Positions 42,038 through 51,930 of a stretch of DNA of 64,000 nt are shown in pieces. The stretch is from Cyclobacterium sp. SYSU L10401 (GTDB taxonomy: Bacteria; Bacteroidota; Bacteroidia; Cytophagales; Cyclobacteriaceae). The notes under the pieces were generated by a model, which worked only from the letters and a program-made list of their open reading frames with translations, did no database searches and had not been told where the DNA came from. The position numbers were made by a program, and so were the translations under genes. The stretch is from the NCBI RefSeq assembly GCF_010993705.1, contig NZ_WOFO01000003.1, forward strand, positions 499,598 through 563,597, written 5' to 3'. Numbering within the stretch: the first letter of the stretch is position 1; the number at the start of each line of letters is the position of its first letter.

Positions 42038-43060
42038 ATGCCCAATAATCCGGAAAGTATTCTTAAAGATTTAGAAGCAAACAAATTTGCCCCCATCTAT
42101 TTTCTTCAGGGAGAGGAACCCTACTTCATCGACAAAATTACTGATTTTATTGAAAACAATGCCCTATCCCCGCAGGATCGTGGATTTAACCAAACCATTG
42201 TTTATGGAAAGGATTCCAGTATGGAGTCTATCCTTACCCATGCCAAAAGATTTCCCATGATGGCAGACCGGCAGGTGGTCATCGTAAAGGAAGCCCAATA
42301 CATTCAGGATTTGAACAGGGAACATGGCATGCAGCAGTTACTTTCCTACATTCAAAATCCCTTACCCAGTACCATCCTTGTTTTTGCCTATAAATATAAA
42401 ATATTAGACGGCAGAAAGGCCCTGGCGAAAGAATTGGATAAGAAGGCTGTTTTGGTGAAATCCGACAAAATACAAGAATACAAGCTGGGTCCTTACATTG
42501 ACAAATATGTCAAATCAAAGGGGTTTACCATTGAACCCAGGGCCTGTCAGGTAATTGCGGAATCCATTGGCAATAATATGGAGGTGCTGACAAATGAGAT
42601 TGATAAAATGCTCATAAATTTTGACGAGCCCGTTCAAATTGATTCTTCGCACATTCAAAAATATGTTGGCATCAGTAAGGATTTTAATAATTTTGAATTG
42701 ACAAAATCGCTGAGCTATAAGGATGTCCCAAAGGCCAATACCATCATCCGCTACTTTTCCCAGAACCAGAAATCACACCCCCTGGTACCTCTTTTATACT
42801 TGCTGTACACCCATTTTACGCGTTTACTGCTCCTCAAAGTTAACCAGAACATGGGTGAACGGGAACTGGCAGGACTATTAAAAGTAAACCCCTATTTTAT
42901 AAAAGAATACATCACTGCAGGGAAAAATTACCCTTTAGGCAAGATTATTGATATCATCGGATACCTGAGAGAAGCAGATTTACGTTCCAAAGGAGTAACA
43001 GCAAGCAATATGGAAGAAAGCCAGATACTTAAAGAACTCATTTTTAAAATTCTTCATTGA
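42038..43060 (+). CDS. holA: DNA polymerase III subunit delta
   Basis: This 340-residue protein is typical of HolA, the clamp-loader subunit that opens the sliding clamp. The N-terminal motif FAPIYFLQGEEPYFIDKITDFIE, the segment FPMMADRQVVIVKEAQ and the C-terminal domain (LVPLLYLLYTHFTRLLLLK) match the family. It heads a long co-directional block; the next start lies within a few bases to 15 bp of its stop. Confidence 0.93.
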   Translation: MPNNPESILKDLEANKFAPIYFLQGEEPYFIDKITDFIENNALSPQDRGFNQTIVYGKDSSMESILTHAKRFPMMADRQVVIVKEAQYIQDLNREHGMQQLLSYIQNPLPSTILVFAYKYKILDGRKALAKELDKKAVLVKSDKIQEYKLGPYIDKYVKSKGFTIEPRACQVIAESIGNNMEVLTNEIDKMLINFDEPVQIDSSHIQKYVGISKDFNNFELTKSLSYKDVPKANTIIRYFSQNQKSHPLVPLLYLLYTHFTRLLLLKVNQNMGERELAGLLKVNPYFIKEYITAGKNYPLGKIIDIIGYLREADLRSKGVTASNMEESQILKELIFKILH

Positions 43061-43074
43061 TCCGAATGGTTAGA

Positions 43075-46074
43075 ATGAAAAGAATAATTTTACTTTCGGT
43101 ACTTGTGAATTTGGCATGGTATACATCCAAAGCACAAAGCACGCAGCACCAGAACAACATGGCTTCTACCTTTCAGGAGGCCCTGGATTTATTTCATAAG
43201 GACCAGTTTGCTTCCTCCAAAGAAGCCTTTGAAAAAATCGATTTTGAAGCCGCCGATTCCAACAAATCAACAGATGTAGCTTATTACATCGCCCTTAATT
43301 CACTCAGGGGAGATTTCCCTGAAGGGCCTTCGGTTCTGGAAGCGTTTATTATGGATCACCCGGGCCACCCCTTAAGTCATGATGCTGCCTGGGAATTGGG
43401 CAATTATTTCTTGGCCAGGAAGGATTACCGCAAGGCCATAGCAAATTTCAGCTTGCTTCAAGATGTACCCCTGATGGAAGAAAGGCATCCTGAATATCTT
43501 TTCAAGATAGGTTATAGCTATTTTCAACTTAAGAACTATGCGCAGTCGAAATATTACTTTGAACGGGCAAAAAGGTACAGGAGTCCGTTTCTGGCAGGGG
43601 CCTATTACTATTCTGGCTTTAGTTCCTTTAAACAAAATGAATTTGAGCAGGCCGTCGCAGATTTTAAGGAAGCAGGTAAATCCAGGGAATTCAGTTTAAA
43701 GGTCCCCTACATGTTGTCAGCCATCTACTACCAGCAGGACAAACTTGACAGCCTAATCGGATACGCTGCCCCGCTGGTAGGCAAAGCAGGCCTGGAAAAC
43801 AAAGCACAGATCCACTTATTGCTGGCAGAAGCCTATTATAATGAGCGGGATTTTTCCCAGGCAGCAGTAAATTACCAGGCTTTTCTTGATGAAAAAAAGG
43901 GCCAATTGTCCAGAGATCAGAAATACAAGGCGGGAGTGGCTAATTATGAAATGGGGCATTATGAAGCTTCCAGCAATTATTTTAAAGATGTTGCTTTGGT
44001 AAATGACGACCTGGGGCAGGTATCAAGTTACTTTTTGGGGCATGCTTACATACAATTGAAGAATTTACCTTTTGCGGCAAATAGCTTTAGTGCAGCCTAT
44101 AAGATGGATTTCAAGCCCGGTATCAAAGAAGAGGCTTTGTTTAACTACGCCAAAGTAAATTTGGAAATGGGGAAATTTCAGGAAGCCGTTTCTGGTCTGG
44201 ACAATTACCTGGATCAGTATCCCCGTGGTGAAAAAATAAATGAGGCAGAAAACCTATTGAGTGATGCCTTGATCAATACCAGTAATTACCTCCGGGCCAT
44301 TTCTCACATAGAGGGCATGCAACAAAAGTCAGATCGGATCAAAGCGGCCTATCAGAAAGTGACTTTTTATCAGGCGATGACCTACTTACGGGATAATAAC
44401 TTCAACGGAACCCTGGACCTTTTGAACAAATCCATGCGCTTTCCTATGGATAAAGGATTACTCTATCAGGCACAATATTGGAAAGGAGAGGTAAATGCCA
44501 TCAATGATAAACCGGATGCTGCCATTCAGGCTTATGAGCGTTTGCTGGCCATGAAGCCCCCTGGTAATGATCAAAGCTTGATTAAAACCCACTATAGTTT
44601 AGGCTATGCTTATTTCAATGAGGGGCAATACGAAAAAGCGGAGAACCAGTTTAAAGTATACACCGATAAACTCAGTAACAGCAATGAAAAGCAGCATTAC
44701 GATGATGGCCTGGTAAGGCTGGGCGATGTATATTATGTTCAAAAGAAATTTGATGCTGCTGCGAGTACCTTTAGAAGAGCAGTAAGGGAAAACAATCAGT
44801 ATAGCGACTATGCTTATTTCAGGGGAGGGGTGGTAGCCAATTTTCAGAATAACAATAACGAGGCCATCCGACAACTGGATCAGGTAATCAACAATTATCC
44901 CAACAGCCTTTACTGGGAAGATGCCGTATTTCAGAAAGCCCAGATCCACATGGAAGACCTCAATTACAGACAGGGAAGGGAGGTCTTTACCAACCTGATT
45001 TCATCCAAACCCAACAGTCCCTTTATTCCCTTTGCCCTGGAAGGAAGGGCAGTGGCCAATTATTCATTGAAAGATTATGATAAAGCTATTGAAGATTATA
45101 AACAAATTTTGAATCAGTTTCCCAATGCAAGTAATGGAGAAACGGCATTGGTGGGTTTGCAGGAAAGTCTTTCTCTCCAAGGAAGATCTGAAGAGTTTTC
45201 CACCTACCTTTCGGAATACCGCACTACCAACCCCAGCAGCAGTAACCTCCAGAATGTGGAATTTGAAGCAGCAAAAAGCCTGGTTTTCAACCAATCTTAT
45301 GAACAAGCCATCAAAGCCCTGGAGGGATTCATGAGAAATTATCCCAAGGCTTCCCAGGTACCGGAAGCGAAATATTATTTGGGAGATGCCTATTTCAGGA
45401 TGGACAATGAGGACAAGGCTTTGGCCTTATTCTATGAACTGGAAAATACTACCGATGTAAATCTAAAGAACCGGGTATTCCAAAAAATTGCTTCTATTGA
45501 ATTTGACCGGGGCAATTTCGATAAAACCATCCCTTATTTTCAATTTACAGCAGATAATGCCAGGAGCAAAGCAGAGGAATATGAAGCTTATTTTGGTTTG
45601 ATGCTTTCTTTTTATGAAACAGGCAATTATGAAAAAGCCGTAGAAAATGCGGACAAAATTCTTGCATTGGGAAATATCACTCCTGAAGCAGAACCCAACG
45701 CATGGCTGATTAAAGGGAAATCCTTGCAGGAAGCCGATGATGATACGGGAGCAGCAGCTGCTTATCAGGAGTTGGTGGACAATTACAATACCATTCAGGG
45801 GGCAGAAGGATTGTACCACCTGGCACGCATACAAACCGAAGCAGGAGCATATGCGGCATCAAACGAATTGATTTTCGAGAGATCTCAGGCATTCAGTCAG
45901 TATGAGTACTGGTACGGGATGCAATTTGTACAACTGGCCAAAAATTACCTGGCAATGGATGAAAAATTTCAGGCAAAAGCCACTTTGGAATCCATCATAG
46001 AGAATTCATCTGATGCAGGGGTGAAGCAGGAAGCCGAGGAGTTATTAGAAACCATCAACGCAACTGGAGAATGA
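43075..46074 (+). CDS. Giant periplasmic TPR-repeat protein
   Basis: This protein has about 999 residues from the ATG at 43075, chosen for its signal peptide (MKRIILLSVLVNLAWYTSKAQS); 43066 is an alternative. Almost the entire mature protein consists of tetratricopeptide or outer-membrane-lipoprotein-type TPR repeats, well over 15 units (for example YYYSGFSSFKQNEFEQAVADF, YYLGDAYFRMDNEDKALALF). The SPFIPFALEGRAVANYSLKDY-like units resemble BamD/YbgF (CpoB). It overlaps the outer-membrane barrel gene by 4 nt (ATGA), indicating coupling. It is probably a periplasmic scaffold for the Tol/Ton-like genes downstream. Confidence 0.85.
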   Translation: MKRIILLSVLVNLAWYTSKAQSTQHQNNMASTFQEALDLFHKDQFASSKEAFEKIDFEAADSNKSTDVAYYIALNSLRGDFPEGPSVLEAFIMDHPGHPLSHDAAWELGNYFLARKDYRKAIANFSLLQDVPLMEERHPEYLFKIGYSYFQLKNYAQSKYYFERAKRYRSPFLAGAYYYSGFSSFKQNEFEQAVADFKEAGKSREFSLKVPYMLSAIYYQQDKLDSLIGYAAPLVGKAGLENKAQIHLLLAEAYYNERDFSQAAVNYQAFLDEKKGQLSRDQKYKAGVANYEMGHYEASSNYFKDVALVNDDLGQVSSYFLGHAYIQLKNLPFAANSFSAAYKMDFKPGIKEEALFNYAKVNLEMGKFQEAVSGLDNYLDQYPRGEKINEAENLLSDALINTSNYLRAISHIEGMQQKSDRIKAAYQKVTFYQAMTYLRDNNFNGTLDLLNKSMRFPMDKGLLYQAQYWKGEVNAINDKPDAAIQAYERLLAMKPPGNDQSLIKTHYSLGYAYFNEGQYEKAENQFKVYTDKLSNSNEKQHYDDGLVRLGDVYYVQKKFDAAASTFRRAVRENNQYSDYAYFRGGVVANFQNNNNEAIRQLDQVINNYPNSLYWEDAVFQKAQIHMEDLNYRQGREVFTNLISSKPNSPFIPFALEGRAVANYSLKDYDKAIEDYKQILNQFPNASNGETALVGLQESLSLQGRSEEFSTYLSEYRTTNPSSSNLQNVEFEAAKSLVFNQSYEQAIKALEGFMRNYPKASQVPEAKYYLGDAYFRMDNEDKALALFYELENTTDVNLKNRVFQKIASIEFDRGNFDKTIPYFQFTADNARSKAEEYEAYFGLMLSFYETGNYEKAVENADKILALGNITPEAEPNAWLIKGKSLQEADDDTGAAAAYQELVDNYNTIQGAEGLYHLARIQTEAGAYAASNELIFERSQAFSQYEYWYGMQFVQLAKNYLAMDEKFQAKATLESIIENSSDAGVKQEAEELLETINATGE

Positions 46075-47750
46075 ACCAAATAAAATCTCTTTGTATGGGA
46101 TTCACCTTATGGGGAATGCTGCTGTCCATCCAGTCAAATGGCCAGGAGGGGCAGGAGCCGGATAGGGGAGAAATCAGGGATACCGAATTCATCATCCGGA
46201 AAGACAGGGTATTGAGTTTACCCAGGCAGTCCAGGGTTTTCGAAAAAAGCCCGACTTTACCTCCTGTAGCTGCCTCTACCAATTACAGTTATCAGGTTAA
46301 GGATTTTTTTGTACCCCTTGATCCCGTGGTACTGGAAACCCAGCCCTACCAAAAACCCTTCCCTTTGCCTGCCTATGACCAAACGCTGGGCAGCGCAAAA
46401 CTTGGATTTGGAAATTATTCTTCACCCTTGATCCGGTTGGATATACATAATTTGCCCGATCCTGATAAGTCATACGGACTGCATCTGAGGCATCAGGGGT
46501 TTTATACGGGACCTGTGGATGGAGAAAATTCGGCTGAAGACCATACTGAAATTGGTTTAAGTGGAAGTTTATATAAGGATGTTGTGGAAATTTATGGTAA
46601 CCTGGATTTTCAAAGGGACATGTATCATTTTTACGGCTATACCGCTGACCCTGAAATAGCGATTCCATCTGATAGCATCAAGCAAGTATTCAATACGATA
46701 AAGACTGTTGTAGGTATAAAAAGAATAGACCGGTCCGAGCCTTTTGATTATGGCGCCAGCCTTTCCCTCAGGTTGTTTAATGATCGGTATGAAGCCCGGG
46801 AAAGTGAAGCATTGGTCAAAGTCAGGGCACTATTCAGGGCCAATGAAAACCTCATCGGAGGAATTAATTCGCAGCTGGCATTTACCTCACCTACAGATGT
46901 CAAATATGAAGCGATCAACAGAAATTATTTCAAATTGCATCCCTATGCCCAGTATAACAAAGATGGCTTTCATGTGGAAATCGGCGCCAATGTGATTCAT
47001 GAGAATGACATTGTACCCAACAAACTGAAGGAATTTTATGTGTTTCCATCCGTATTCCTATCCTATCATGTAATGCCGTCCATTGGCCTGTATGCTGAAT
47101 ATAAAGGCGATGTAATAAGAAATACCTATTATGATTTTGTCCGGGAGAATCCTTTTCTGGGTCCTTCCGACCAGCTGAGAAATACCGTTCAAAATTATAG
47201 AATTGATGCCGGAATTTCAGGGAAAGCCAATGATGAAGCCAATTACAAAGCAGGATTAAGATATGGAGATTATACCAACATGCATTTCTTTGGCAACAAT
47301 GCTACCGATAGCACCCGGTTTCAACTCATTTACGATAACAATACCAGGGTAATGGAATACCATGCAGCACTAGATTACAAATTTGACCAGTATTATCAGC
47401 TGCAGGCAAGCGCCCATTATTTCCAATATACGCTTGACGAAATCAATACCGCCTGGCACAGGCCGGAATGGGAACTCCATCTCAACAATACTTTCACGCC
47501 GGATGAACAATGGACCTTACATGCCAATCTGAATGCTTTGGGAGGGATTCAAGCCATTAACCTGGCCGCTGACAGCCAAAGAAAATTGGATCCCATATTG
47601 GATCTACACCTGAGTGTAGATTATGCGATCACGGAAAGATTTTCAGCTTTCCTTCAGGGAAATAATTTACTGAATCAATCCTATGAACGATTTAACTATT
47701 ATCCGGTAAGATCCATACAGGTAATCGGTGGAATCGGATTTAAATTCTGA
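46071..47750 (+). CDS. Plug-less outer-membrane barrel (TonB-receptor-like C-terminus)
   Basis: This is a 559-residue protein with a signal peptide (about 1-24). A short periplasmic N-terminal segment (about 25-100) is followed by alternating aromatic beta-strands to the end (NNLLNQSYERFNYYPVRSIQ, final Phe), as in the C-terminal strands of TonB-dependent receptors. The plug domain and a visible TonB box are absent, so it is shorter than classical receptors (700-1000 residues). It overlaps the TPR gene by 4 nt and is followed by SPOR/TolQ/TolR/TonB-like genes, suggesting a common envelope complex. Confidence 0.75.
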   Translation: MNQIKSLCMGFTLWGMLLSIQSNGQEGQEPDRGEIRDTEFIIRKDRVLSLPRQSRVFEKSPTLPPVAASTNYSYQVKDFFVPLDPVVLETQPYQKPFPLPAYDQTLGSAKLGFGNYSSPLIRLDIHNLPDPDKSYGLHLRHQGFYTGPVDGENSAEDHTEIGLSGSLYKDVVEIYGNLDFQRDMYHFYGYTADPEIAIPSDSIKQVFNTIKTVVGIKRIDRSEPFDYGASLSLRLFNDRYEARESEALVKVRALFRANENLIGGINSQLAFTSPTDVKYEAINRNYFKLHPYAQYNKDGFHVEIGANVIHENDIVPNKLKEFYVFPSVFLSYHVMPSIGLYAEYKGDVIRNTYYDFVRENPFLGPSDQLRNTVQNYRIDAGISGKANDEANYKAGLRYGDYTNMHFFGNNATDSTRFQLIYDNNTRVMEYHAALDYKFDQYYQLQASAHYFQYTLDEINTAWHRPEWELHLNNTFTPDEQWTLHANLNALGGIQAINLAADSQRKLDPILDLHLSVDYAITERFSAFLQGNNLLNQSYERFNYYPVRSIQVIGGIGFKF

Positions 47751-47884
47751 AAAATTTGAAAATAGAAAACCTTCCGGGATTTTGAGGGGGTTTTAGAAGG
47801 TAAATATCAGGTAATTATTCGTAGCAATATTGGCGAATTGCTGGTTTTACTTTAGCTTAGTGGATTAAATCAACCATTTTTGAG

Positions 47885-48562
47885 ATGTCTGAAAATAAAT
47901 CTAAGGATCATAACAGCCAATCCGATAATGATGAGGACTTTGGGCTTCCCCCGGTAAATGTAAGTCCATTAAAAAGCGACCCACAAAAATTGGTTGCAGA
48001 AAAACCGGCTGTACCTGTAGCCCAGGAATCAGGTTCATCCTCCGTTCCTGATGCTGGAAAAAATCCTGAAAAGAAAGAAAAAAAAGACCGTACCAATTGG
48101 GTGATCTTGTTGATCCTGCTTTTTATATTAGCCGTTGGATATGGTGTTTACCATTTTGGACTGATGGAGGATTTCAATAGAAATACTCCTGAAGTGACCA
48201 CTGAGGATACAACGCCACCTGCTGTGGAAAGCCCTGAACCTGAACCAAGCCCGGATCCTGAAGCTGCTATTCCGGAAACTGAGGAGCCAACAACAGCACC
48301 CCAGCTCACCGAAATCGAAGGCCGAGAAGGTAGTCCCAGGTATTTTTTAGTAGTAGGTAGTTTTATAGACGACGATCTTGCCAGGGATTATTCCTCCAGA
48401 CTCAATAATTCGGGATTGAATACGTTTTTGGTGCATCCGTACGGCAATATTAATTTTTACAGACTGGCTGTTGGACAATTTGAAAATTTAGATTTGGCAT
48501 TGGAGGCCATGGAATCCTCCCAGAATGATTACAAGGAAAACTTATGGGTTTTGAAATACTAA
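47885..48562 (+). CDS. SPOR-domain membrane protein
   Basis: This is a 225-residue protein. A cytoplasmic acidic N-terminus (1-72) precedes one transmembrane helix (about 73-93, WVILLILLFILAVGYGVYHFG). A Pro/Glu/Thr-rich linker and a C-terminal SPOR domain follow (about 150-225, RYFLVVGSFIDDDLARDYSSRL ... FYRLAVGQFENLDLALEAM). SPOR domains bind denuded peptidoglycan at the division septum. The stop lies 1 bp before the TolQ/ExbB gene, so the envelope motor and a septal peptidoglycan sensor are co-transcribed. Confidence 0.87.
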   Translation: MSENKSKDHNSQSDNDEDFGLPPVNVSPLKSDPQKLVAEKPAVPVAQESGSSSVPDAGKNPEKKEKKDRTNWVILLILLFILAVGYGVYHFGLMEDFNRNTPEVTTEDTTPPAVESPEPEPSPDPEAAIPETEEPTTAPQLTEIEGREGSPRYFLVVGSFIDDDLARDYSSRLNNSGLNTFLVHPYGNINFYRLAVGQFENLDLALEAMESSQNDYKENLWVLKY

Positions 48563-48563
48563 T

Positions 48564-49265
48564 ATGATATTATTACAAACTTTGTCAACAGCTGATGGAC
48601 AGCAAACCGTAGATTCCCTTGCCTTGATGGAAGGAACCGGATCTTCAGATATCGGATTACTGGAATTATTGATAAAAGGAGGATACATGATGATCCCTCT
48701 CTACCTTTTATTCATCCTGGCTATTTTTATTTTTGTAGAACGGATACTTACGCTTAAAAAGGCCTCCAAAACACCAAAAGGCATGATCGATCAGGTCAAG
48801 ATGATGGTGCAAAGCGGGAATATTGAGCAGGCCAAAATGATCTGCCAGGGAGAAGAGACGCCCGTTGCCCACATGATTGCCAAGGGATTGGAAAGGATAG
48901 GAAGCCCTTTGAAAAACATAGAAGTAGCCATAGAGAATGTGGGTAAAATTGAAATCTATAAATTGGAGAAAAACCTGGGGCTCCTTGCTACCGTTTCCGG
49001 AGCAGCTCCCATGATTGGCTTTTTGGGTACTGTCGCAGGAATGATCCGGGCATTTATTGGAGTAGCACAGGAAGAGGGGATGGTATCCCCCAAACTTTTG
49101 TCCACAGGGATTTATGAAGCCATGATTACCACGGCTACCGGGTTGGTGGTAGGAATTGTTGCTTATTTGGGTTACAATTATCTGGTGACCCAGGTGTCTA
49201 AGTTGATACACAACATGGAATACACTACCATAGAATTTATCGATTTACTTCAGGACAAGAAATAA
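48564..49265 (+). CDS. TolQ/ExbB-family proton channel protein
   Basis: This is a 233-residue three-span membrane protein. The MotA/TolQ/ExbB domain has a long cytoplasmic loop and the pore helices GLLATVSGAAPMIGFLGTVAGMIRAFI and GIYEAMITTATGLVVGIVAYLGYN, with the conserved Thr/Gly and polar residues. It forms the proton-driven pentameric motor with ExbD/TolR. Spacers to both neighbours are 1 bp. Assignment between ExbB and TolQ rests on context: a SPOR protein upstream favours a division-linked Tol-like role. Confidence 0.92.
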   Translation: MILLQTLSTADGQQTVDSLALMEGTGSSDIGLLELLIKGGYMMIPLYLLFILAIFIFVERILTLKKASKTPKGMIDQVKMMVQSGNIEQAKMICQGEETPVAHMIAKGLERIGSPLKNIEVAIENVGKIEIYKLEKNLGLLATVSGAAPMIGFLGTVAGMIRAFIGVAQEEGMVSPKLLSTGIYEAMITTATGLVVGIVAYLGYNYLVTQVSKLIHNMEYTTIEFIDLLQDKK

Positions 49266-49266
49266 A

Positions 49267-49659
49267 ATGGCCTTACAATCTAAGAACAAAATCGAAGCCG
49301 CCTTCAGCATGTCTTCCATGACAGACATCATTTTCCTGTTGCTGATATTTTTTATGCTTACTTCATCCTTTATCACTCCCTCCGGACTGCCGGTAAACCT
49401 TCCCTCTAGCGAGAGTTCTGATATAGTGATGCAGGAAATCACCGTGAGCATCACCAAGGACCTGAGGTATGCCGTCAACGACCGGCAGGTGAACAGGAAT
49501 GAAATTAAAAATGAACTTACTGCGTTACTTAGTGAGAAGAAAGGATATGTAGTTTTACATATTGATAAAGAAGTGCCGGTTGAATACCTGGTGGAAATTG
49601 GAGGCATAGCAGCTGCACTGGAAGCCAATGTAACGATTGCAACACAACCATTTAAGTAA
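49267..49659 (+). CDS. TolR/ExbD-family protein
   Basis: This is a 130-residue protein with a single N-terminal transmembrane helix that carries the essential aspartate (D20 in MTDIIFLLLIFFMLTSSF) used for proton translocation. A periplasmic ExbD/TolR domain ends LVEIGGIAAALEANVTIATQP. It is the rod-like partner of the TolQ/ExbB pentamer. The gene is 3 bp upstream of the TonB-like gene. Confidence 0.92.
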   Translation: MALQSKNKIEAAFSMSSMTDIIFLLLIFFMLTSSFITPSGLPVNLPSSESSDIVMQEITVSITKDLRYAVNDRQVNRNEIKNELTALLSEKKGYVVLHIDKEVPVEYLVEIGGIAAALEANVTIATQPFK

Positions 49660-49662
49660 ATC

Positions 49663-50616
49663 ATGGAAGTCTGGGAAGACCAAAGAGAACAAGCAACCAC
49701 TAAAAGAAAGGCCATAATCATTACCTTCATCATGAATGTATTGATACTGACTGCCGTGTACTTTATAGTGGTATGGAAGCAGCCGGTTCCTCCCATGTCT
49801 CAATTTGGCCTGGAACTTAACCTGGGCTTTTCCGATGTAGGTACGGGCGAAAACCAAACCACTACACCGCCTTCCAGCAGCGAGGAACCTGCCACAGAGG
49901 CAGCAGCCCCTGGTGAGCCTGCCCCTCAGCCATCGGAAAACGCCGTCCCCACTAGTCCTCCCGAATCCACTCCTTCCCAAAATACCCCTCAGCAAAGTCA
50001 ACCCAAGGTGGAATCCCCATCCAGGGTGCCCAGCCCCATACAAGCAGAAGAACAACTGGAAGAATCCATAAAAGAACCGGAAAAAACAAACGAAAAACCT
50101 TCAGAATCTGCTAGTAATGAGGTGAAGGAAGCACCTGCTCCTGAAAAAGTAGAAGAAAAAAAGCCCACCGTAGATCCCCGAGCAATTTTTGGGGCAGGGG
50201 GGACCAAAGGCTCTTCCAGACAACCTGCTGCCGGAAGTCAACAGGGTGAATCCAATCAAAGCGGCGATGAAGGCAATCCCCAGGGCACGGTAGATGGCAG
50301 GTCCATCTTGCAATCCGGAAGGGGTAATACCGGAGATGGATCAGGTTACAACCTGGATCTGGCAGGCTGGGATTTTGCATCCAAACCCAATATTCAGGAT
50401 AATTTATCCAACAGAAACGGGAAAATTGTATTCCGGATAACCGTAAATGACGACGGAAAAATTGTACAGGCGATTCCTCTGGAATATAACGTCACAAATG
50501 AAGTAATGAATTACTACCGGACAGTGGTCAATGGTCTTTCGTTCAAACGGCAGAGTGGGAATCCCACCGCCGAATATTCTACCGGTAGAATTACTTTTAT
50601 CATAAGGGTTGACTAG
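49663..50616 (+). CDS. TonB/TolA-like energy transducer
   Basis: This is a 317-residue protein. A cytoplasmic N-terminus and one transmembrane helix (about 20-38) precede a long Pro/Glu/Ser/Lys-rich spacer (about 60-200) able to span the periplasm. A C-terminal domain follows (about 230-317; NRNGKIVFRITVNDDGKIVQAIPL ... GRITFIIRVD), resembling TonB_C/TolA C-terminal folds. It would transmit motor motion to an outer-membrane partner, plausibly the barrel encoded upstream. folC starts 9 bp after the stop. Confidence 0.85.
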   Translation: MEVWEDQREQATTKRKAIIITFIMNVLILTAVYFIVVWKQPVPPMSQFGLELNLGFSDVGTGENQTTTPPSSSEEPATEAAAPGEPAPQPSENAVPTSPPESTPSQNTPQQSQPKVESPSRVPSPIQAEEQLEESIKEPEKTNEKPSESASNEVKEAPAPEKVEEKKPTVDPRAIFGAGGTKGSSRQPAAGSQQGESNQSGDEGNPQGTVDGRSILQSGRGNTGDGSGYNLDLAGWDFASKPNIQDNLSNRNGKIVFRITVNDDGKIVQAIPLEYNVTNEVMNYYRTVVNGLSFKRQSGNPTAEYSTGRITFIIRVD

Positions 50617-50625
50617 TTTGAATCC

Positions 50626-51930
50626 ATGAATTATCAGGAATCCCTTGACTTTTTATTCCAGGCCCTACCTATGTTTCAGCGGGTAGGCGGCAGCGCTTTC
50701 AAAAAGGACCTCAGCAACACCTTTAAGCTTTGTGAAAGGCTGGGGCAGCCCCAAAACAATTTCAAAAGTATTCATATCGCTGGGACCAATGGAAAGGGGA
50801 GTACTGCACATGCCCTGGCTTCCGTGCTGCAGGAAGCCGGATACAAAACAGGCTTGTACACCTCTCCTCATTTGAAATCCTTTCGCGAGAGGATTAAAAT
50901 TAATGGCAAGGAAATCCCAGAAAGTGAGGTGATTGCTTTTGTGAAAGGCCATCAAGCCTACCTGACAGCACTAAAGCCCAGCTTTTTTGAAATGACGGTT
51001 GCTTTGGCATTTGACCATTTTTCCAAACAAAAGGTAGATTATGCCATCATAGAAACAGGGATGGGCGGTCGTTTTGATAGCACCAATGTGATCCAGCCCA
51101 TCCTCAGTCTGATCACCAATATAGGTATGGACCACACGCAATTCCTGGGCGATACCCTGGATAAGATCGCATTTGAAAAAGCAGGCATCATCAAGGCCGG
51201 CGTTCCGGTAATTATCGGGCAAACCCATCCCTTAACCGCCGGGGTATTTACTCAGCGGGCAGAAGAAACACAATCACCGATCACCTTTGCCGATCAAGGG
51301 GTGAAGGTTACCTCCAGGCGCTCTGAGGCAAATGAAGGGCATGTTGCCAATGCGGTCTATCAGATCAAGCCCGCAATGGGCAGTCTTCAGGAGATCTCCA
51401 TGGATTTATTGGGGAAATATCAGATTAAAAACCTTCCAGCTATCCTTAAAGCCCTGGAAATATTGCAGGCTATGGGACTGGAAATCAAAGATACACATAT
51501 TGCCAAAGGATTGTCACAAATAAAACGGAATACCGGATTAAAAGGCCGCTGGCAAATCTTAAGTCAATCCCCTTTAACCATTTGTGATACAGGACATAAT
51601 ATAGATGGATTTGAATCCATACTTTCACAGGTAGAAGAATTGGATCGGGAAACCCTATTTTTCGTTTTGGGTATGGTCGCAGACAAAGATCAGGACCAGA
51701 TCCTTTCTCTTCTGCCAAAAAAAGGGGTCTATGTTTTTTGTCAGGCGGACCAACCCAGATCCCTGCCGGCTGAACAATTAATGGAAAAGGCCAAGACCTA
51801 TGGATTGAGCGGAACCTGTATTCCTGATGTAAACCAGGCACTGGAATATGCTAAAAAAAGTGCCGGAAACAGGGATTTGATTTTTATTGGAGGGAGTACC
51901 TTTGTAGTAGCCGAATTGAACGAATTATAA
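50626..51930 (+). CDS. folC: Folylpolyglutamate/dihydrofolate synthase
   Basis: This is a 434-residue Mur-ligase-fold enzyme. The P-loop GTNGKGSTAHAL, the motif ETGMGGRFDSTNV and the C-terminal DTGHNIDGF are all present. FolC adds glutamate to dihydropteroate and/or folates, and most bacterial forms are bifunctional. It follows the TonB-like gene by 9 bp and precedes trmB by 5 bp, so the envelope genes and this enzyme are probably one operon without functional relation. Confidence 0.94.
   Translation: MNYQESLDFLFQALPMFQRVGGSAFKKDLSNTFKLCERLGQPQNNFKSIHIAGTNGKGSTAHALASVLQEAGYKTGLYTSPHLKSFRERIKINGKEIPESEVIAFVKGHQAYLTALKPSFFEMTVALAFDHFSKQKVDYAIIETGMGGRFDSTNVIQPILSLITNIGMDHTQFLGDTLDKIAFEKAGIIKAGVPVIIGQTHPLTAGVFTQRAEETQSPITFADQGVKVTSRRSEANEGHVANAVYQIKPAMGSLQEISMDLLGKYQIKNLPAILKALEILQAMGLEIKDTHIAKGLSQIKRNTGLKGRWQILSQSPLTICDTGHNIDGFESILSQVEELDRETLFFVLGMVADKDQDQILSLLPKKGVYVFCQADQPRSLPAEQLMEKAKTYGLSGTCIPDVNQALEYAKKSAGNRDLIFIGGSTFVVAELNEL

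Follow-up and report, generated by a model that had tools for sequence, protein, structure and literature searches.

Analysis of a 64,000-nucleotide window from Cyclobacterium sp. SYSU L10401 (contig NZ_WOFO01000003.1, positions 499,598 to 563,597; coordinates below count from the first letter of the window) identified a conserved set of six genes, at 43075-50616, that encode a long tetratricopeptide repeat (TPR) protein, a predicted plug-less outer-membrane barrel, a SPOR-domain protein, a TolQ/TolR-type motor driven by the proton motive force (PMF) and a TonB-like transducer. The architecture and conservation of this set are firm. We read it as an energised trans-envelope machine of Bacteroidota whose likely job is tethering or constriction of the outer membrane at division, and we hold the chances for and against this reading to be evenly balanced. 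The genes, one segment of the barrel and the flanks are the following.

TPR gene: 43075-46074, + strand, 999 residues from an ATG start that lies 14 bp past the holA stop
Barrel gene: 46071-47750, + strand, 559 residues, ATGA overlap with the TPR gene, C-terminal Phe
Barrel N-terminal periplasmic tail segment: 46164..46268, + strand, residues ~32-66, RGEIRDTEFIIRKDRVLSLP..., predicted disordered
SPOR gene: 47885-48562, + strand, 225 residues, past a 134-bp gap after the barrel gene
TolQ-like gene: 48564-49265, + strand, 233 residues, TolQ/ExbB-type proton channel subunit
TolR-like gene: 49267-49659, + strand, 130 residues, TolR/ExbD-type subunit
TonB-like gene: 49663-50616, + strand, 317 residues, TonB/TolA-like transducer
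holA (DNA polymerase III delta, TIGR01128): 42038-43060, + strand, flank, outside the machine
folC (TIGR01499): 50626-51930, + strand, flank, beginning 9 bp past the TonB-like gene

The six open reading frames (ORFs) stand at the place and on the strand given in the initial annotation of the window, near-contiguous and co-directional, with spacers of 1-3 bp, the ATGA overlap and the single 134-bp gap (as read at the junctions), in which a consensus scan of the + strand found no terminator-like site. The mechanical ORF of the TPR gene begins earlier, with a TTG at 43057. Beyond that first account, holA and folC, which flank the six, form part of one gene run with them. Among the window proteins Pfam recognised the TPR repeats, SPOR, MotA_ExbB and ExbD, and returned no family for the barrel and the TonB-like protein at E<=0.05; hydropathy, at a cut of our own choosing, counts no transmembrane segments in the TPR protein and the barrel, one each in the SPOR, TolR-like and TonB-like proteins, and three in the TolQ-like protein. 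The protein identities proposed at the outset were borne out as well, namely a TPR protein of about 1000 residues, a barrel lacking a plug, a type II SPOR protein and a complete PMF motor with its transducer.

In the structure model the barrel is an outer-membrane beta-barrel of the TonB-dependent-transporter fold, with 22 strands and no plug. All 50 structural matches listed are TonB-dependent transporters or their complexes, a comparison that speaks only to the folds among these matches, and the model aligns to the barrel part of BtuB only. Moreover, no plug family appears in the Pfam matches of 34 barrel members (E<=0.05); on these two grounds we rejected an ordinary TonB-dependent receptor. 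Where the plug would be, the model has a disordered N-terminal tail, with a predicted local distance difference test score (pLDDT) <50 at residues 20-102. The tail holds the most conserved 20-mer of the barrel in Cyclobacteriaceae (residues 32-51, entropy 0.39 bits against a mean of 1.52, 49 sequences); in the class-wide alignment other parts are more conserved than the tail. A pattern of the D..KI...P type occurs in 15 of 34 class tails (500 shuffles gave a mean of 3.6 and at most 9) and in 2 of 15 outside the class, where several tails read, by eye, LPEFVITG-like. Searches of PDB sequences with the barrel and transducer alignments were negative. The nearest named relatives of the barrel are from Cyclobacterium (83-86% identity). 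In Algoriphagus terrigena (L136) a second barrel homologue lies reversed downstream of folC.

The TPR protein has a signal-peptide-like N-terminus in which no lipobox Cys was seen, and we infer that it is a periplasmic scaffold. Pfam gave no match to TolA_bind_tri (PF16331), the domain by which CpoB would be recognised, and the CpoB model PRK10803 scored 41.6 bits against a cut-off of 383; the YbgF model TIGR02795 reached 198.6 bits, above its cut-off of 90.1, spread over eight repeat stretches. A homologue is present in 136 of 198 phylum genomes (profile, E<=1e-60), and its gene stands immediately 5' of the barrel gene in 49 of the 50 same-class and 23 of the 50 outside-class genomes that have both matches. 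One genome (G038, C1:1170331-1172601) also encodes another long TPR homologue (E 4e-205) at a distance from the gene set.

With respect to the inner-membrane half, the TolQ-like protein matches PF01618 (E 1.8e-27) and the TolR-like protein PF02472 (E 9.1e-24), the pair of families that makes up the motor of Tol-Pal; the transmembrane Asp20 of the latter is invariant in an alignment of 11 sequences. Against NCBIfam the TolQ-like protein scores 87.7 bits for tolQ and 61.8 for exbB, both far below cut-off. The TonB-like protein consists of a transmembrane helix (2-37), a long Pro/Gly-rich disordered linker and a TonB-fold C-terminal domain (~229-317), so that the structure model provides each part of a TolA-type transducer (transmembrane segment, linker, TolA/TonB C-terminal fold), with a fold slightly closer to TonB. 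The genome also carries a separate classical ExbB-type motor. In a TolQ/ExbB tree of 48 sequences, in which long branches are flagged, 23 class TolQ copies, whether linked to the rest of the set or not, form one clade (99/100), which four copies from one outside family join (95/89). A Glt-like gliding machine of the Myxococcus kind was considered and rejected, the GltJ model matching far under cut-off and in low-complexity parts. In one locus (L164 of G025, ~9.5-15 kb) one short ORF comes after the six-gene set, and then a classical ExbB-type gene with two genes of ExbD type, so that both motors stand side by side.

The SPOR protein is a type II membrane protein with a short N-terminus carrying an FGLPPV motif, a transmembrane segment at residues ~73-91 and a C-terminal SPOR domain, the FtsN-like arrangement of a single transmembrane segment and a periplasmic C-terminal SPOR domain, with a window match barely at cut-off. 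Across 17 aligned SPOR proteins Pfam found SPOR in 13, HU-CCDC81_bac_1 in 10, HU-CCDC81_bac_2 in nine and Bac_DNA_binding in five. The HU-CCDC81 domains sit N-terminally in these relatives and are missing from the window copy; the Cyclobacteriaceae forms that were read have no HU part and keep an FGLPPV-like motif, which elsewhere follows HU. The bacterial HU-CCDC81 family (PF18174/PF18175) is said to be the subject of Burroughs et al. 2017. Outside the class, six SPOR proteins were scanned with Pfam: three (L193, L196, L202) have HU-type and SPOR matches, L200 has its HU-type match on a separate ORF, and L201 and L204 have a SPOR match only; for the L203 and L208 proteins HU was judged absent by length and N-terminus. 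Cyclobacteriaceae and some of the outside-class copies have no HU part yet retain the neighbouring genes. Where the HU-SPOR gene is separate, its neighbour, judged by eye from N-termini, is kdsB-like in L187 and L179 and dprA-like (on the opposite strand) in L183.

Of 80 named Cyclobacteriaceae loci, 75 have the whole set from holA to folC, and five lie on short contigs that end inside it. In a sample of 119 genomes of the class, a single-sequence search found the barrel in 110 (E<=0.001), in most of them as one match, and TolQ orthologues were detected in 113 (E<=1.2e-60, a cut set at the gap before the next block, which starts at 2.9e-49 and contains classical ExbB); most genomes have two ExbB-type matches, and a 0.5-Mb genome (G024) has no match in the TolQ search. 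The HU-SPOR model matches 114 of the 119 at E<=0.001, some matches being SPOR-only. The SPOR gene adjoins the barrel gene in 27 of the 119 genomes and TolQ in 16, and thus links the two halves of the set. In 20 motor-centred class loci TolQ and TolR are adjacent without exception, a TonB-like gene comes next in 17 (split in L166) and folC then follows in 12; SPOR lies beside TolQ in five. Where the set is split, folC often remains behind tolQ-tolR-tonB.

Beyond the class, a class-wide barrel profile (E<=1e-10) matched 104 of the 198 genomes of a phylum sample, 50 from the same class and 54 from outside it, and no same-class genome is among the misses listed; many of the outside matches are C-terminal only and may include unrelated barrels. 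Since the barrel is found in 110 of 119 and in 50 of 50 same-class genomes, most of the class may share it as an outer-membrane protein. Fifteen outside loci were retrieved, 11 for having the strongest matches and four with weaker matches (G186, G121, G298, G149). The order TPR, barrel, SPOR, TolQ, TolR, TonB is complete in five of them (L200, L201, L203, L204, L208), and the order from barrel to TonB in 12, including seven loci of one family that have no TPR gene alongside. One locus (L209) has TPR, barrel, SPOR and TonB with the motor genes missing, and two (L202, L210) have TPR, barrel and SPOR only; barrel followed by SPOR recurs in all 15, if an additional HU-type ORF is tolerated in L200 and L202 and the Pfam match is taken to identify SPOR in L201. 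Among outside-class genomes 50 have both barrel and TPR matches, four barrel only, 36 TPR only and 58 neither (Fisher p 1.3e-11, uncorrected for relatedness). This recurrence of gene order and orthology inside and outside the class led us to reject chance clustering, and the wide occurrence of homologues in both samples to reject an oddity of one strain. Furthermore, the TolQ orthologue, the barrel (one partial match, E 4e-4) and the TPR protein (E<=1e-30) are missing together from three genomes of a single genus. Counter-examples to this joint absence were found: G064 and G092 (91-93% complete) have TPR and barrel with no TolQ orthologue, G030 (460 contigs) keeps TolQ without barrel or TPR, and G074, described below, has TPR and motor with no barrel detected.

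No TolB match (PF04052, TolB_N) was obtained in the genome of the strain itself, nor in any of the 15 genomes from which the outside loci came; two of the 119 class genomes match, both weakly (E 3e-6 and 8e-4). These scans, extended to the phylum, led us to reject a classical Tol-Pal system with a hidden TolB. In the phylum sample TolB_N occurs in nine of 198 genomes, none of which has a barrel match at E<=1e-10, and frames of TolB size are found in only five of the nine, all of one genus and without TPR and barrel matches. In one genome of this genus (G126) a locus of the tolQ-tolR-tolA-tolB-pal-cpoB type was confirmed: it encodes TolQ, TolR, a protein of the TonB_2 family, TolB, two proteins with OmpA domains and a TPR protein that matches TolA_bind_tri weakly, and a gene for a thiamine-pyrophosphate enzyme lies in between. 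An exclusion between TolB and the TPR-barrel set is suggested by these distributions, with few independent events. The six-gene set contains no Pal; the genome has nine OmpA-domain matches, the smallest open frames among them being 279 and 304 residues.

Like Tol-Pal (tolQ-tolR-tolA-tolB-pal-cpoB in E. coli), the set combines a PMF motor, a transducer and a periplasmic TPR protein; unlike it, the set has a barrel and a SPOR protein in place of TolB and Pal, a TPR protein of ~1000 residues without TolA_bind_tri, and a motor apart from the Tol-Pal TolQ in the tree. With the Ton system (ExbB-ExbD-TonB) it shares the TonB-fold C-terminal domain and a transporter-type barrel, and it differs in that the barrel is plug-less, the partners include TPR and SPOR proteins and the classical ExbB-type motor is separate in the genome. 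In component sizes and gene order the motor half fits ExbB1-ExbD1-TonB1 of Riemerella anatipestifer, for which the excerpts available of the published report (PMC4446302) describe no TPR, barrel or SPOR gene and place an HI0933-family gene downstream rather than folC; on sizes and order, TonB1 is probably orthologous to the transducer of the set. The SPOR protein has the type II topology and C-terminal SPOR domain of FtsN and RgsS, whereas many of its relatives carry HU domains and its gene adjoins motor and barrel; what it shares with the HU-CCDC81 family is the Pfam matches in 10 and nine of the 17 aligned sequences, the family of the window being without the HU part. There is a precedent for contact between such a protein and a motor, in that a Sinorhizobium TolQ pull-down enriched RgsS (PMC7327166, in excerpt). 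A literature search on HU-CCDC81, folC-exbB and Bacteroidota FtsN, limited to open-access sources so that earlier publication is possible, found no description of the set.

We hypothesize that proton flow through the TolQ/TolR-type motor would drive the TonB-like protein, whose C-terminal domain would cross the periplasm and grip the N-terminal tail of the barrel, directly or via the TPR protein. With no plug to extract, the force would pass into the barrel itself, and the outer membrane would be drawn toward the inner membrane and cell wall or tethered to them in cycles, while the SPOR domain, FtsN-like in topology, would bring or hold the assembly at septal peptidoglycan. By analogy the machine would work like Tol-Pal, though its motor does not group with Tol-Pal on the tree, in hosts that would mostly be without TolB. 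As far as sequence goes, a septal or outer-membrane-tethering role appears likely, and the set, which looks ancient and occurs widely in Bacteroidota, could perform the outer-membrane task that falls to Tol-Pal in other bacteria.

A number of observations weigh against this interpretation, in which the division or tethering function stands at about even odds and its evidence consists of genes and models. The initial annotation had named conservation of the gene order across Bacteroidota as a check and had treated separate occurrence in relatives as evidence to the contrary. The order recurs in the Cyclobacteriaceae and outside loci described above, but the genes are unlinked in most class genomes: among 118 with any match, barrel, SPOR and TolQ are consecutive in 12, barrel and SPOR alone in 15, SPOR and TolQ alone in four, and neither adjacency is found in 87, part of which fragmented assemblies leave uncertain. 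The count used 111 HU-SPOR genomes, omitting G001 and G030 (partial, ~2e-10 and 5e-10) and G046 (place not listed). Separation thus holds for these 87 genomes, but not for the TPR-barrel and TolQ-TolR pairs, which stay together in 49 of 50 and 20 of 20 cases. One genome (G074; L157, L205) has the TPR protein and motor with no barrel detected in the genome, in the order SPOR-TolQ-TolR-TonB-folC-TPR with a cytochrome-oxidase-type gene adjoining TPR. In the tree, five other outside copies and 12 classical ExbB sequences adjoin the class clade, the 32 rows not forming one clade (two changes needed), and E. coli TolQ and two TolQ of the TolB-bearing genus group apart, on long branches, with E. coli ExbB (100/99). 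The motor is accordingly not assigned to Tol-Pal by descent, a grouping that the long branches make unsure. A Tol-like system with the barrel standing in for TolB and Pal, as first proposed, is supported in part: it agrees with the occurrence of the set in and outside the class and with the rarity of TolB, and the place of the motor, itself unsure, lends it no support. As for TolB, the other four of the nine TolB_N genomes have a TPR match, the control genome Bacteroides ihuae matched TolB_N, and the apparent exclusion involves few lineages. The window SPOR match is marginal (21.1 bits against the Pfam cut-off of 21). A TonB-box position-specific scoring matrix, built from proteobacterial boxes, detected no significant box, with p<0.05 in two of 34 class and none of 15 outside barrel tails (controls: TPR tails 0/39, barrel interiors 2/34). 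Finally, a rival candidate for outer-membrane tethering in Bacteroidetes, PorE, has been published; in the excerpts consulted (PMC12204202) it is proposed to fill the same gap, as a single fusion lipoprotein that has a Pal-like domain, lacks a motor and involves other genes.

The strongest challenge from the literature concerns the transducer. In the Riemerella excerpts (PMC4446302) tonB1 is deletable and the TonB1 complex energises the hemin receptor OMhemR in E. coli; if the proteins are orthologous, the transducer would, by analogy, be dispensable on plates and able to energise an ordinary receptor, an outcome that the initial annotation had set against its own proposal and that is in part what was found. 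These data are the best evidence that the transducer serves ordinary receptors, or both kinds of partner, and they would suit a second Ton system for plugged receptors, to which TPR, barrel and SPOR would be long-standing neighbours serving a different function. We nevertheless consider that explanation doubtful, given the conserved order that barrel and SPOR share with it both within and beyond the class, the joint absence of TPR, barrel and TolQ orthologue in one genus, and the Riemerella findings themselves (same excerpts): the tonB1 mutant grew on hemin, the tonB1 tonB2 double mutant did not, and iron uptake proceeds mainly via TonB2.

Two other functions can be envisaged for the set. It might be a transport or secretion machine in which the barrel, having no plug, acts as a gated channel that the TPR protein or the tail of the barrel closes and the TonB-like protein opens. 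A transporter-fold barrel with, in the model, a wide potential pore would fit such a function, and a TPR protein beside a barrel resembles secretion-system arrangements; moreover, PopC secretion in Myxococcus requires Oar, a TonB-dependent transporter (PMC6434023, in excerpt). We judge this unlikely, as the flanks in the window and named relatives are holA and folC with no substrate genes, it is not obvious what the SPOR/HU protein would do in transport, and most class genomes have a single barrel match, unlike substrate-specific transporters. Alternatively, a HU-transmembrane-SPOR protein might tie nucleoid DNA to the septal wall and motor, with pulling of the outer membrane secondary. The HU-CCDC81_bac_1 matches in 10 of 17 aligned proteins and the HU-type matches in four of six outside-class proteins scanned (one as a separate ORF) are in keeping with this, as are the three genomes of the joint-absence genus, which retain the HU-SPOR gene without TPR, barrel and TolQ orthologue and thereby indicate that HU-SPOR has a job of its own. 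However, HU is absent from the Cyclobacteriaceae N-termini, from L204 (by Pfam) and from L203 and L208, though the gene order is kept, and DNA binding by the HU part is putative; chromosome-envelope co-ordination as the principal function seems to us quite improbable.

How the outer membrane of Bacteroidota is attached during division without identifiable tol-pal was raised as an open question in 2025 (PMC12204202, in excerpt). The tethering machine proposed here would offer concrete genes for this question, in that a conserved set pairs a PMF motor with an outer-membrane barrel dedicated to it and a wall-binding protein of septal type; if the proposal is correct, a transporter barrel has been re-used as a mechanical handle. 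A bolder version, which we regard as tentative and rather doubtful, is that the last common ancestor of Bacteroidota had a third proton-driven envelope machine besides Ton and Tol, with a plug-stripped barrel as a fixed handle, held by the TPR protein and pulled by a TonB-fold rod, and with HU-transmembrane-SPOR coupling nucleoid, septal wall and motor, such that one assembly joined chromosome, wall and outer membrane at division. If true, this ancestral machine would be the counterpart, in this phylum, of Tol-Pal and FtsN combined.

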